Source: Nitrospirota bacterium
Lineage (GTDB): Bacteria; NPL-UPA2; JAADIA01
Direction of reading: 5' to 3'
Assembly: GCA_013151555.1 (NCBI GenBank)
Contig: JAADIA010000011.1
Location: 1-9,570 of the forward strand
DNA: 9,570 nucleotides
Numbering within the stretch: position 1 is the stretch's first letter; every line of letters begins with the position of its first letter. Below, piece by piece: positions 2,833-7,980 of this stretch. The notes beneath the pieces are model-generated. The model saw nothing but the letters and a program-made list of their open reading frames with translations. It searched no databases and was not told where the DNA came from. The position numbers and the translations under genes are program-made.

Positions 2833-2848
2833 TGGCACGAAAATTGCA
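2833..2848 (+). promoter_or_regulatory. Sigma-54 (RpoN) -24/-12 promoter
   Basis: TGGCAC-GAAAA-TTGCA matches the RpoN consensus TGGCAC-N5-TTGCW exactly. The GG (2834-2835) and GC (2846-2847) pairs are separated by exactly 10 bases. Transcription would start near 2859, just before the DOMON-protein start codons. Such promoters need an ATP-driven enhancer-binding protein, consistent with the two palindromes upstream. Confidence 0.82.
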
Positions 2849-2894: not shown

Positions 2895-3704
2895 ATGTCT
2901 AAATCAAAACTTGCGGTGCAGTTGCTTCTGACGGCTGTTTTTACAACCCTTATGGTAAGTCTGGCGCTGGCCCATGAAGCTGGCAAGGAAAAGGGGGCGA
3001 ACCTTTTTGCCGGAGTGAAAACTATAATAATACCCTATGTGGCAAATCCCGGTATTGTTATTGATGGAAAAATCGGAACAGGTGAATATCGCGAAGCCGG
3101 ACGATTTGTGGACGAAGATACTGGAATGGAGGCCTACCTCCTCCATGACGGCAAGAACCTCTATGTGGGTCTGAAAAATCCTGAAGATGGCTGGGTAGCG
3201 ATTGGCTTTGGGAACGATAACGAGGATCTGGATAAGGGGGGCAATGTGGTAACAGGCTACCTGGATAAGGGAGTCCTGATGCTCCGGGAGTTTTATGCTT
3301 CTAAAATCACCGGAGAAATGGAGGTTAAGCCGATTGAGAAGGTTGGAGGCGTGGGCGACATAAGCGCTGCAAAAGGAGGAGATGGTAAAGCAACAACCAT
3401 AGAATTCACCGTTCCCTTAAACTCCACCGGCAAATATGGTCGTCATCTTGAACCCGGAAAGATATATCCGCTTATTATAGCCTTTAACCGCTCCATAGAA
3501 TTCCCGGCTGCCCTGGACCGGGGAGAAATTCATTTTGATAAGGCATATATTGTCCGGAAGAGCGATAACTTAAAGGAAATAAAGGACCTCTTTGCCAAGA
3601 AAAGAGCCCCGTATGCGCCCTATGATACCGTCATCGCCATGACAATTGTTGGCCTGTTTGCACTCGTATTACTTATTGTTTATTCGAAAAAGGGGAAAGA
3701 ATAA
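2895..3704 (+). CDS. Exported, membrane-anchored DOMON / ethylbenzene-dehydrogenase-like (EB_dh) protein
   Basis: Numbered from the 2895 start (269 aa), residues 1-27 form a signal peptide (two Lys, hydrophobic stretch, ALA then His). Residues about 45-225 resemble the DOMON-type beta-sandwich of the ethylbenzene dehydrogenase gamma family, with an opening IDGKIGTGEY segment and the signature GWVAIGFGND. Residues about 246-264 form one membrane helix, followed by SKKGKE, so the domain faces the periplasm. Proteins of this family often bind heme b through Met with His or Lys; several Met and Lys are present but I cannot assign ligands. The stop is directly followed by the cytochrome b ATG, so the two are surely co-translated and probably partners in electron transfer. 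A carbohydrate-binding role of the related CBM9 fold is the alternative. ATG 2874 would add seven residues. Confidence 0.75.
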   Translation: MSKSKLAVQLLLTAVFTTLMVSLALAHEAGKEKGANLFAGVKTIIIPYVANPGIVIDGKIGTGEYREAGRFVDEDTGMEAYLLHDGKNLYVGLKNPEDGWVAIGFGNDNEDLDKGGNVVTGYLDKGVLMLREFYASKITGEMEVKPIEKVGGVGDISAAKGGDGKATTIEFTVPLNSTGKYGRHLEPGKIYPLIIAFNRSIEFPAALDRGEIHFDKAYIVRKSDNLKEIKDLFAKKRAPYAPYDTVIAMTIVGLFALVLLIVYSKKGKE

Positions 3705-4754
3705 ATGAGTAACGATAAGTTTGAATCACAGAATAAGATGGTAACTAAAGTATGGCAATTTCTGGATGAAAGATTGAAATTCAGTACGATATCTTATGAT
3801 ATCCCCAAACACGGGAATAATCTGAGCTACTGTTTAGGTGGGATAACTTTATTCGGGTTCGTACTGCTTTTTATAACGGGAATATACATGGCGGCATTCT
3901 ACCATCCGGAGGTCTCAGAGGCGAACGAGAGCGTCCGTCTTATAACTGCCAGCGGTTTAGGAAGTTTTATCAGGGGGTTGCACTACTGGGGCGGGCAGGC
4001 GGTTCTGATTTCGATTATTTTGCATATGGTGAGGGTATATATAACGGGCTCATACAAGAAGCCGAGAGAATTTAACTGGTTGGTAGGTATAGCCTTGCTG
4101 GCCATAACCATAGGTTTGCTGTTCAGCGGCACCGTTCTGAAATGGAATCAGGAAGCGCTTGAAGCGTATATGCATAATGTCGAGATAGGTAAAATGTTTG
4201 GAACTCTGGGTATGCTGCTCACCGGCACTACAGAGACTTTTAATCTTTTAACGAGGATGTTCATGACTCACGCAATTCTCCTCCCCCTGCTTCTGATTTT
4301 TCTGTTTATGGCGCATGCTTACTTTATAAAACAACACGAAATATCTCCGCTACCCTGGCACAAAAAGACTCCGGAGACAGTTCCCTTTACTTCACATTTA
4401 AAAAAATTGACGGCCTATGGTCTCTCGTTTTGGGTGATACTCGGCATTTTTGCCCTGGTCTTCCCTTCTCCCTTGGGTCCAGCGCCTATTTGGGGAATAG
4501 AGGTAACGAAACCCCCCTGGTTTTTCCTTACCCTCTATCCCTTGGAGGACCTCTTCGGGGTCAAGGCCATTCTCTATGCTACCATACTGACATTTATTTT
4601 GTTAGCAGCTGTTCCCCTGATAGATAGAAGTAAAAATAGAGAGCCACGCAGAAGAAAACTGATGATCGCCGGACTGCTCATAGCCCTTACCCTGTATATT
4701 GTCCTGACTCTCATCGGTGCATTTACACCACCGCGTGTCCATATAGGCATGTAG
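3705..4754 (+). CDS. Cytochrome b of b6/subunit IV type, fused, with PPWF Qo motif
   Basis: The 349-residue protein holds about seven membrane helices, four in a cytochrome b6-like half and three in a subunit IV-like half. Heme b ligand pairs are H93/H107 (H-x13-H) and H189/H204 (H-x14-H); the 14-residue second spacing is the b6 hallmark. SYCLGGITLF at 41-50 matches the b6 segment whose Cys carries the extra covalent heme c_n, making Cys43 a candidate ligand. The quinol-oxidation motif, PEWY in classic complexes, is PPWF here (270-273), so the usual Glu is absent. AGGGGA at 3691-3696 gives a good ribosome site and the gene starts immediately after the upstream TAA. No Rieske protein or c-type cytochrome follows, so the electron acceptor is unclear; the DOMON protein is the obvious local candidate. 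It most likely acts as a membrane quinol/quinone oxidoreductase. Confidence 0.88.
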   Translation: MSNDKFESQNKMVTKVWQFLDERLKFSTISYDIPKHGNNLSYCLGGITLFGFVLLFITGIYMAAFYHPEVSEANESVRLITASGLGSFIRGLHYWGGQAVLISIILHMVRVYITGSYKKPREFNWLVGIALLAITIGLLFSGTVLKWNQEALEAYMHNVEIGKMFGTLGMLLTGTTETFNLLTRMFMTHAILLPLLLIFLFMAHAYFIKQHEISPLPWHKKTPETVPFTSHLKKLTAYGLSFWVILGIFALVFPSPLGPAPIWGIEVTKPPWFFLTLYPLEDLFGVKAILYATILTFILLAAVPLIDRSKNREPRRRKLMIAGLLIALTLYIVLTLIGAFTPPRVHIGM

Positions 4755-4758
4755 GCCA

Positions 4759-5031
4759 ATGCATGCTCCCGCAGAAGAACTCACCCTGATCCCCAACATG
4801 ATCCCTAAAACGGATATAGAGAAGGCCGTATGTAAGGCTATATCCGACAGGAAGGTGTCTTCTGTTTTAGAGTTGGAAGATTACGTGGCTGATTGTCTTT
4901 TCACAAATGAAGTTGCTGGTGGGGTGGTAATGGCCGGCATAGGAGATATCGGGCCGCAGGCCTTTCTCGAAGATGCTATAAGGATAATTCAGTCGTTAAA
5001 TGGCAGATTGATAACAATAAAAAAACGGTGA
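4759..5031 (+). CDS. Small conserved-context orphan protein, third gene of the cytochrome b operon
   Basis: I do not recognise this 90-residue protein. It starts 4 nt after the cytochrome b stop with no convincing ribosome site (TAGG only), which points to translational coupling. An in-frame ATG at 4798 would give 77 residues. It looks soluble: no signal peptide or membrane helix, with likely helices near 17-33 and 70-84. Two Cys occur (residues 25 and 46), and a glycine-rich segment EVAGGVVMAGIGDIGP spans about 51-66. The sequence has coding-like composition with a long open frame and no competing frame. It may be an assembly or regulatory factor for the neighbouring complex, but that rests only on position. 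Confidence 0.65.
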   Translation: MHAPAEELTLIPNMIPKTDIEKAVCKAISDRKVSSVLELEDYVADCLFTNEVAGGVVMAGIGDIGPQAFLEDAIRIIQSLNGRLITIKKR

Positions 5032-5964: not shown

Positions 5965-6450
5965 TTGTTGCTCGCTAACTTAATGAAAGAAGATTTGATC
6001 ATAATGGACCTGCATTCCCGGGAGAAGATGCTGGTTATCAGGGAAATGATAGACCGGCTGAAGCAGGCTGGGGAGATTGCCAATTGGATAGATTGTTTGA
6101 ATGTGATTTCCGAAAGAGAACAATTAAAAACTACCGGTATCGGGGAAGGAATCGCTATCCCTCATGCAAGAACGAATGCTGTTAAAAATTTAGTCATTGC
6201 CTTTGCCCGGTCCCGGGAAGGAATTGATTTTAAGTCTATAGATGGTCAGCCGGTTCACTTAATCTTCATGTTGGTTTCGCCTCCTCCCGATGCCGGCCTT
6301 TACTTGAATGCCCTGGCCAGGATATGTGCTCTGTTAAGACGGAAGGATTTCAAAGAATCTTTAATCAAAGCAGATAATGCTCAAGAAATAATATCCCTAA
6401 TAAGAGAATCTGAGATAATGGGAGGAAGAGAAAGTGCCAAAACCGGATAA
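5965..6450 (+). CDS. Solo PTS EIIA-like (fructose/nitrogen type) regulatory protein, copy 1
   Basis: This is a 161-residue single-domain protein of the PTS EIIA type 2 family. GIGEGIAIPHART (58-70) contains the phosphoacceptor His67, with IAFARS and LIFMLVSPP further on. I chose the TTG start at 5965, behind GAGGGGG (5952-5958), because the protein then aligns residue for residue with the second copy at 7525; an ATG at 5983 would remove the shared NLM-EDL beginning. No EIIB, EIIC, HPr or EI gene is present, so a regulatory role like that of PtsN (EIIA-Ntr) is more likely than sugar uptake, perhaps on the adjacent transporter. Residues after 150 extend past copy 2 and overlap the next gene by 17 nt. 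Confidence 0.85.
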   Translation: MLLANLMKEDLIIMDLHSREKMLVIREMIDRLKQAGEIANWIDCLNVISEREQLKTTGIGEGIAIPHARTNAVKNLVIAFARSREGIDFKSIDGQPVHLIFMLVSPPPDAGLYLNALARICALLRRKDFKESLIKADNAQEIISLIRESEIMGGRESAKTG

Positions 6451-6817
6451 AACATCTATCGATAAATGTTCAACCTGTGGCAATTTCACCTTAAGCACCT
6501 CAGCTCATGGCATAAGCCTGCCCGAGGGGACCTTTTGCAAAGATTGTCTGGCTGAGCTGGTAAAGATAGGCCTGGCTCAGAGAACTCAGAAAACTGTTAG
6601 GTGGTATTATAGCATCCCTTTCGTTATCCTTGAGCTCTTACTTTTTGGTCCTTTCGCACTACCCTTACTCTGGAAAAGCGATAGGTTTAGTTCTCTGGTA
6701 AAGGTTGTCCTAACCTTGATTGTGGCTATCTTTACCGTCTTAATTGCAATCTATGCGATGGCCTTAATTAAGAAAGCTTCTGCCTATTTCCAGTCAACTA
6801 TTGACCTTTTGGAGTAA
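6434..6817 (+). CDS. Zinc-ribbon protein with two membrane helices
   Basis: The N-terminus holds a four-Cys zinc ribbon, C-x2-C at residues 12-15 and C-x2-C at 35-38. Two hydrophobic helices follow (about 57-80 and 87-112), joined by a short charged turn. The segment GPFALPLLW (72-80) is a pattern I recall from several small bacterial membrane proteins of unknown function. A short tail ends the protein at residue 127. The GTG start is preceded by GGAGG (6421-6425) at 8 nt, and the gene overlaps the EIIA-like gene by 17 nt, indicating tight co-expression. The Cys-rich head probably lies in the cytoplasm, where the EIIA and RsbT-like neighbours would be, but topology is inferred. No enzymatic role is evident. 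Confidence 0.75.
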   Translation: MPKPDKTSIDKCSTCGNFTLSTSAHGISLPEGTFCKDCLAELVKIGLAQRTQKTVRWYYSIPFVILELLLFGPFALPLLWKSDRFSSLVKVVLTLIVAIFTVLIAIYAMALIKKASAYFQSTIDLLE

Positions 6818-7524: not shown

Positions 7525-7980
7525 ATGAAGCTTTCCAATCTAATGCGAGAAGATTTAATCTGCCTGAATCTAAGGGTAGAGAAGAAGAGAGACGGTATTA
7601 ACGAGATAGTTGATCTCCTGGCCAGGACGAGGGGGATTACTGACCGAGATAAATTCTTAAGGGCCATTATGGAAAGAGAAAAATTGGCATCCACGGGAGT
7701 AGGGGAAGGTGTTGCCATTCCTCATGCCCGAACGGAAGCAGCTAAAGAGATGGTGATTGCCTTTGCCCGTTCTGAAAAAGGAGTAGATTTCGACTCGTTG
7801 GATAAAGAGCCGGTCTATCTCATCTTTATGATCGCTGCTCCGGAAAAGCCGGTCGAGCCTTATCTGAAAGCTCTGGCCAGGATTTCCCGCCTTCTTGGAA
7901 AGAAGCCTTTTAAGGAGAGTTTGAGGAAGGCCAAATCGCCTCAGGAAGTAATAGAAGTAATAAAAGAAACAGAAAAGTAA
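7525..7980 (+). CDS. Solo PTS EIIA-like (fructose/nitrogen type) regulatory protein, copy 2
   Basis: This 151-residue EIIA-like protein aligns without a gap to copy 1 (78 of 150 positions identical by hand count, about 52%). GVGEGVAIPHART (58-70) keeps the phosphoacceptor His67. The beginning MKLSNLMREDL confirms the chosen TTG start of copy 1. The ATG at 7525 has AAGGAG about 10-15 nt upstream and AAGGAT closer. Retention of His67 in both copies suggests both can be phosphorylated, yet divergence in residues 15-50 and 104-112 suggests different partners. As with copy 1, no transport subunit is nearby, so regulation of the zinc-ribbon protein, RsbT-like protein or transporter is an inference from position. 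Confidence 0.87.
   Translation: MKLSNLMREDLICLNLRVEKKRDGINEIVDLLARTRGITDRDKFLRAIMEREKLASTGVGEGVAIPHARTEAAKEMVIAFARSEKGVDFDSLDKEPVYLIFMIAAPEKPVEPYLKALARISRLLGKKPFKESLRKAKSPQEVIEVIKETEK

Follow-up and report, generated by a model that had tools for sequence, protein, structure and literature searches.

A conserved clade of Rieske-free, b6-type cytochromes b paired with variable secreted subunits in bacteria and archaea

Organization of the locus

The stretch of DNA analyzed here (the window) is an entire contig of 9570 bp, from a 1.81 Mb genome that is 93.7% complete and belongs to a sparsely sampled phylum. Three co-directional open reading frames (ORFs) on the forward strand were confirmed at the positions at which they had been predicted. 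The first (2895–3704) encodes a secreted protein of the DOMON type, held in the membrane by a single C-terminal anchor. An AGGAG sequence lies 7 nt 5′ of the ATG at 2895 and an in-frame ATG is also present at 2874, giving products of 269 and 276 aa, respectively. The TAA codon of this gene (3702–3704) is followed with a gap of 0 nt by the ATG (3705) of an unsplit b6-type cytochrome b gene (3705–4754), and 4 nt separate the end of the latter from an orphan ORF of 90 aa (4759–5031). Pfam, NCBIfam and further homology searches found no relative of the 90-aa ORF. Its codon usage is like that of the adjoining genes (a score of 0.276, versus 0.219 for the 99th percentile of random reverse-strand stretches), and it is probably a real gene.

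Two other regions of the window are worth describing. An ORF at 8–1234 joins PEMT-like and polysaccharide deacetylase segments and has no normal C-terminus; its continuation (HDGDGD...SREQTVQSLPIIIKEIRKRGYSFVTIPEM) sits in another frame, in ORF 1084–1308. A frameshift near position 1150 is likely, as either a sequencing error or a broken gene. The 127-aa product of positions 6434–6817 has a membrane segment as well as two CxxC pairs and was assigned to no family.

A sigma-54 promoter separates the module from NDH-2

An NDH-2 gene (1305–2648) lies upstream of the DOMON gene, and the two had been proposed to be parts of one short respiratory chain. The 225-bp gap between them holds a promoter-like site and two palindromes. 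The former, TGGCACG-AAAA-TTGCA (2833–2848, forward strand), is a perfect match to the sigma-54 consensus located 46 bp 5′ of the ATG at 2895, with 0 matches in 200 shuffles. The palindromes, TGCAAGTTTTGCA (2658–2670) and TGCAAAAATTGCA (2709–2721), are both exact instances of TGCAA-N3-TTGCA; they are spaced 51 bp apart, are the only two in the window and are likely enhancer (activator) sites. Sigma-54 promoters are usually arranged with activator sites upstream. We also considered the stem after NDH-2 as a terminator and rejected this assignment, since its exact twin 51 bp further on makes an activator box more likely.

Because the sigma-54 promoter and palindromes intervene, the DOMON, cytochrome b and 90-aa genes are most likely a regulated sigma-54 unit of their own, with NDH-2 as a neighbor. 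NDH-2 is thus probably outside the unit and the proposed chain is not upheld, although it is possible that NDH-2 and the cytochrome b module have one quinone pool in common. None of the other clade loci that we fetched contains an exact sigma-54 match. We note that two PTS EIIA-type (PtsN-like) paralogues are encoded downstream on the same strand (5965–6450 and 7525–7980). PtsN-like proteins are often tied to sigma-54 regulation, in agreement with the promoter at 2833.

A distinct clade of cytochrome b

In the 349-aa cytochrome b, the b6 and subunit IV parts form a single chain. Of the cytochrome b families in Pfam, only the bc-type Cytochrome_B is matched (4.3e-24), together with Cytochrom_B_C (1.5e-4), and the nearest solved structure is cytochrome b6 (1.1e-31). 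The heme-ligand histidines (His93, His107, His189 and His204) are all kept, and they are invariant in the clade described below. Cys43 (window positions 3831–3833) aligns with the cysteine of the YCLGG motif of cytochrome b6, the attachment site of heme ci; nearly all other clade members have serine or threonine at this position.

A scan of named genomes with patterns derived from the window protein alone gave one relative, in a metagenome-assembled genome (MAG) titled Thaumarchaeota archaeon. A clade profile built from three sequences was searched in 386 bacterial genomes; clade scores were 613, 591, 540, 488 and 285 bits, and ordinary cytochromes b scored 209 bits and below. The gene is found in 42 of the 46 genomes of one bacterial family (f10, probably the Nitrospinaceae), in an unrelated GC-rich bacterium (G340) and in two archaea, the Thaumarchaeota MAG and G582 (2 of 300 genomes of that class), and is absent from eight further genomes sampled from the window's phylum. 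Bacterial and archaeal members are 38–39% identical. In a maximum-likelihood tree, every clade member lies on one side of a branch with 100/100 support, and the window, G340 and archaeal sequences group together (95/81) apart from f10; the placement of G340 is unsure because of its long branch. The patchy distribution of the clade suggests horizontal transfer.

Rieske genes are absent from clade loci

A search of the window's genome (93.7% complete) with PF00355 found no Rieske gene, where 10 of 14 control genomes were positive. A Rieske motif is encoded in the fetched locus of 29 of the 31 ordinary cytochrome b genes but of none of the 35 clade genes, and none occurs in eleven clade stretches of 5–20 kb. 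No ORF with a CxxCH motif, as carried by cytochromes c1 and f, was found in the window or in most clade loci. The f10 and G340 genomes and an archaeal genome do own Rieske genes, none of them near the clade gene. In a single-contig f10 genome the closest is ~240 kb away, and f10 separately encodes a complete operon for a Rieske protein, a split cytochrome b and an octaheme cytochrome c. A Rieske protein encoded elsewhere in f10 could bind the clade cytochrome b.

The original prediction of a Rieske-less cytochrome b is thus borne out by the clade loci and by the window's genome. It had also been asked whether the gene pair recurs, and the cytochrome b is indeed found beside a secreted single-anchor subunit, Rieske-free, in three further lineages (f10, G340 and the archaea). 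Neither of the outcomes named beforehand as speaking against the prediction, a Rieske or cytochrome c gene just beyond the conserved operon or a pair that does not recur, was encountered.

Residues on the docking side of cytochrome b are altered

The Qo site of known bc structures, like their Rieske-docking surface, is made up of the CD and EF regions. We compared the clade with 46 cytochromes b chosen solely by an adjacent Rieske motif. The window cytochrome b has, in its own numbering, Thr143, Lys146, Glu150, Glu153, His157, KPPW (269–272) and Glu281. The position of Rhodobacter capsulatus Y147 is threonine (Thr143) in all 33 clade rows and tyrosine in 44 of 44 Rieske-linked comparators; in R. 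capsulatus bc1, the change of Y147 to serine alone abolishes activity (PMC10583091). Four residues are fixed only in the clade: (i) Glu153, which is Trp or Phe elsewhere; (ii) His157, elsewhere Val or Ile; (iii) Gly166, replacing Pro and (iv) Glu281, replacing Leu. Lys146 and Glu150 (R. capsulatus M154) differ from the comparators in nearly all clade members. Based on the motif alignment, the clade-specific residues fall in the CD and EF regions, and the outer quinol side is rebuilt consistently across the clade.

The PEWY motif is KPPW in the clade and KPFW in G340. We considered this change as a diagnostic feature and dropped it, because proline replaces the PEWY glutamate in four Rieske-linked comparators as well, including the canonical complex of f10, whose Rieske-linked subunit IV has KAPWY (L146, 8244–9005; L147, 5065–5817). 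Loss of this glutamate does not equate to loss of the Rieske protein, and of the two positions only the tyrosine change is diagnostic. His346 near the C-terminus was set aside as a conserved clade residue because its alignment with the Rieske-linked comparators is unstable. An AlphaFold model of the cytochrome b made from two sequences has a pLDDT of 46, too low for locating residues.

The outer partner varies between lineages

The window DOMON-type protein begins with a signal peptide, which is followed by a DOMON-type domain and a single helix at the C-terminus with YSKKGKE after it; the positive charges after the helix should place the domain outside. Its Pfam DOMON match (1.4e-5) scores 25.8 bits against the family's own cut-off of 32.7, and a full-DOMON protein of another genome matches it at 1.1e-13. 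Cytochromes f and c1 have a signal peptide, an outer domain and a C-terminal anchor, whereas Rieske proteins are anchored at the N-terminus. The window protein has the cytochrome f/c1 topology. Heme-binding DOMONs supply an axial methionine and histidine (PMC10691727); the corresponding window residues are Asp120 and Leu214 (numbered from the 2874 start), unlike two DOMONs of genome G051 in which both ligands are present. Heme may be held in the window DOMON by others of its residues (His91, His191, His220, Met85, Met136 and Met149). The window partner has no cysteine, nor do 20 f10 partners have one within their final 115 residues, so that these proteins cannot hold a Rieske cluster or a CxxCH heme. 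An AlphaFold model of the DOMON protein from a single sequence has a pLDDT of 41, too low for a fold comparison.

A secreted protein with a single C-terminal anchor adjoins the cytochrome b gene at the loci examined, upstream in the window, f10 and the archaea and downstream in G340. Its outer domain is low-complexity, rich in His and Met and non-DOMON in f10; has a weak match to EB_dh and the type II DMSO reductase heme b subunit in the archaea and contains a His-rich stretch, with no good Pfam match, in G340. The domain of the outer subunit varies by lineage, and most clade members have a partner that is non-DOMON. PDB searches with the DOMON protein and with partner profiles gave nothing useful, and a profile comparison of the window DOMON with the archaeal partner did not demonstrate homology. 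A conserved histidine at the N-terminus of the mature partner was dropped as a candidate feature because several f10 partners lack it.

The genes surrounding the partner differ as well. The f10 operon encodes a PCYCGC-motif protein, a TlpA-like thioredoxin, the His/Met-rich anchored protein and the clade cytochrome b (L033, 8286–10774; L082, 6441–9006). In G340, genes resembling ccmA, ccmB and then ccmF (identified by eye) come directly after those of the cytochrome b and the His-rich protein (L083, 8642–11743).

Proposed function

We put at about an even chance that the clade forms a Rieske-free, non-bifurcating electron conduit that crosses the membrane between the quinone pool and the periplasm and is fitted with a variable outer subunit. 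The cytochrome b would no longer split the electrons of quinol in the Rieske manner. Hemes bH and bL would instead form a linear electron path across the membrane, with the (mena)quinone pool at one end and, at the other, a redox partner or substrate outside the cytoplasm. Roughly in the place of cytochrome f/c1, the outer subunit (a DOMON in the window) would be a docking or binding platform, not a heme relay.

The likelier direction in the window's genome is export from menaquinol to a periplasmic acceptor; in f10 the reverse is possible, with nitrite-derived electrons passing to quinone. A menaquinol-oxidizing exporter to a periplasmic acceptor would fit an anaerobe-like genome. In the window's genome, the gene of a MenA-like prenyltransferase has as its neighbors a tetraheme cytochrome c gene and an Hdr/MvhD-like cluster with FAD-oxidoreductase-like genes (L137, 9499–17129, contig C73 of G000; named by eye except UbiA), which suggests anaerobic hydrogen or sulfur metabolism. 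No bd oxidase was found in this genome. MqnA/D were likewise not found there, which counts against a menaquinone-based reading. COX1 also gave no match, but this negative is soft because the same search misses Corynebacterium glutamicum, which has an aa3 oxidase.

The altered outer-side residues could also be a new quinol-oxidizing site. We think it unlikely that at such a site Glu150, Glu153, His157 and Glu281, helped by a bound metal or by the outer subunit, replace the Rieske cluster in quinol oxidation. An outside chance attaches to a metal (e.g. copper) or thiol device, a quinol-driven reductase of metals or disulfides on the outer side or an oxidase-assembly factor. The newly invariant His157 and glutamates would suit such a role, as would the His/Met-rich f10 partner and the His-rich stretch of the G340 partner with its neighboring ccm-like genes, and the role stays open because the f10 operon begins with the PCYCGC protein and the TlpA-like thioredoxin. 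However, neither the window partner nor the archaeal ones show a comparable abundance of His and Met, and their loci lack TlpA and PCYCGC genes.

The original prediction had a heme b in the DOMON protein stand in for the Rieske cluster and take up electrons at the quinol site. We consider this doubtful. The window partner does belong to the DOMON superfamily, the archaeal partners weakly resemble the EB_dh and type II DMSO reductase heme b proteins, and cellobiose dehydrogenase and ethylbenzene dehydrogenase both hold heme b in related folds. Against this, the Met and His ligands are replaced by Asp120 and Leu214 in the window protein, no DOMON accompanies the clade gene in f10 or G340 and the C-terminal anchor resembles that of cytochrome f/c1. 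The predicted module stands in its composition (a DOMON-type single-anchor protein, a b6-type cytochrome b and a small orphan); the heme role given to the DOMON is not supported.

An ordinary bc/b6f cytochrome b, with a Rieske partner whose gene lies at another locus or dropped out of the assembly, is improbable. The Rieske genes elsewhere in f10, G340 and an archaeal genome would allow it, and the assembly of the window's genome may lack ~6%, but no Rieske gene was found in that genome, a complete Rieske, split cytochrome b and octaheme cytochrome c operon exists separately in f10 and the docking-side residues are replaced and fixed in all clade members. A degenerate, non-functional paralogue, which would account for the missing assignment of a partner enzyme and the absence from eight other genomes of the phylum, is barely credible given that bacterial and archaeal members, at 38–39% identity, share the heme ligands and many unusual residues without change and that 42 of 46 f10 genomes keep the gene.

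Textbook bc complexes need the Rieske protein for splitting the electrons of quinol. A conserved clade without it, with new fixed residues on the docking side, is a natural experiment on the two-heme core alone. A literature search, with subscription papers mostly outside its scope, found no description of a Rieske-free cytochrome b clade or of the residue signature. If f10 is the Nitrospinaceae, nearly all members of a major marine nitrite-oxidizing group carry the clade gene, and a linear conduit between quinone and periplasm would bear directly on reverse electron flow in these organisms, where the path from nitrite to quinone in Nitrospina-type oxidizers is covered by genome-based hypotheses only (PMC3578206). 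Should the rebuilt quinol site be real, it would amount to a complex III without a Rieske protein that occurs in both bacteria and archaea and that almost every member of one family, probably marine nitrite oxidizers, possesses.

Comparison with known systems

The nearest relatives are the b6f (cytochrome b6 plus subunit IV) and bc1 complexes, which have in common with the window protein the fold family and the four heme histidines; the window chain is b6-type and unsplit, with the subunit IV part included. It differs from both in having no Rieske gene and no CxxCH cytochrome f/c1 in the locus, and it has threonine at the Y147 equivalent, KPPW for PEWY and the new Glu153, His157 and Glu281. 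The best NCBIfam match of the window cytochrome b is ExtP (NF040969), known from selenite/tellurite reduction operons, but its 155.8 bits are far under the curated cut-off of 290 and cover the b6 half only. The archaeal partners match the type II DMSO reductase heme b subunit (TIGR03477, EB_dh) weakly and below the cut-off; no molybdoenzyme was seen in the archaeal clade loci, and the window partner does not match.

In the CbsAB/SoxNL cluster of the Sulfolobales, the cytochrome b SoxN reportedly lies beside an outer b-type cytochrome, CbsA, and SoxL is said to be a Rieske protein. The presence of SoxL sets this cluster, which is named in an earlier study (PMC7325606), apart from the Rieske-free clade loci by description, not by sequence. 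CYB561-DOMON proteins (PMC10691727) join an outer DOMON to a transmembrane cytochrome b with two hemes, and the window pairs its cytochrome b with a DOMON-type protein in a similar way, but the window core is bc-type rather than b561-type, the DOMON ligands are absent and the two parts are encoded by separate genes.

The closest precedent comes from Nitrospina gracilis, whose canonical complex is encoded by a Rieske, split cytochrome b and octaheme cytochrome c operon and for which a second, unsplit b/b6-type cytochrome b is mentioned in one sentence (Luecker et al. 2013, PMC3578206); its partner and residue signature are not described there. Because f10 carries this Nitrospina-type operon, with the clade gene elsewhere in the genome, the second N. 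gracilis cytochrome b very probably belongs to the Rieske-free clade, which would then have been glimpsed already in that organism, the identity of f10 being deduced.
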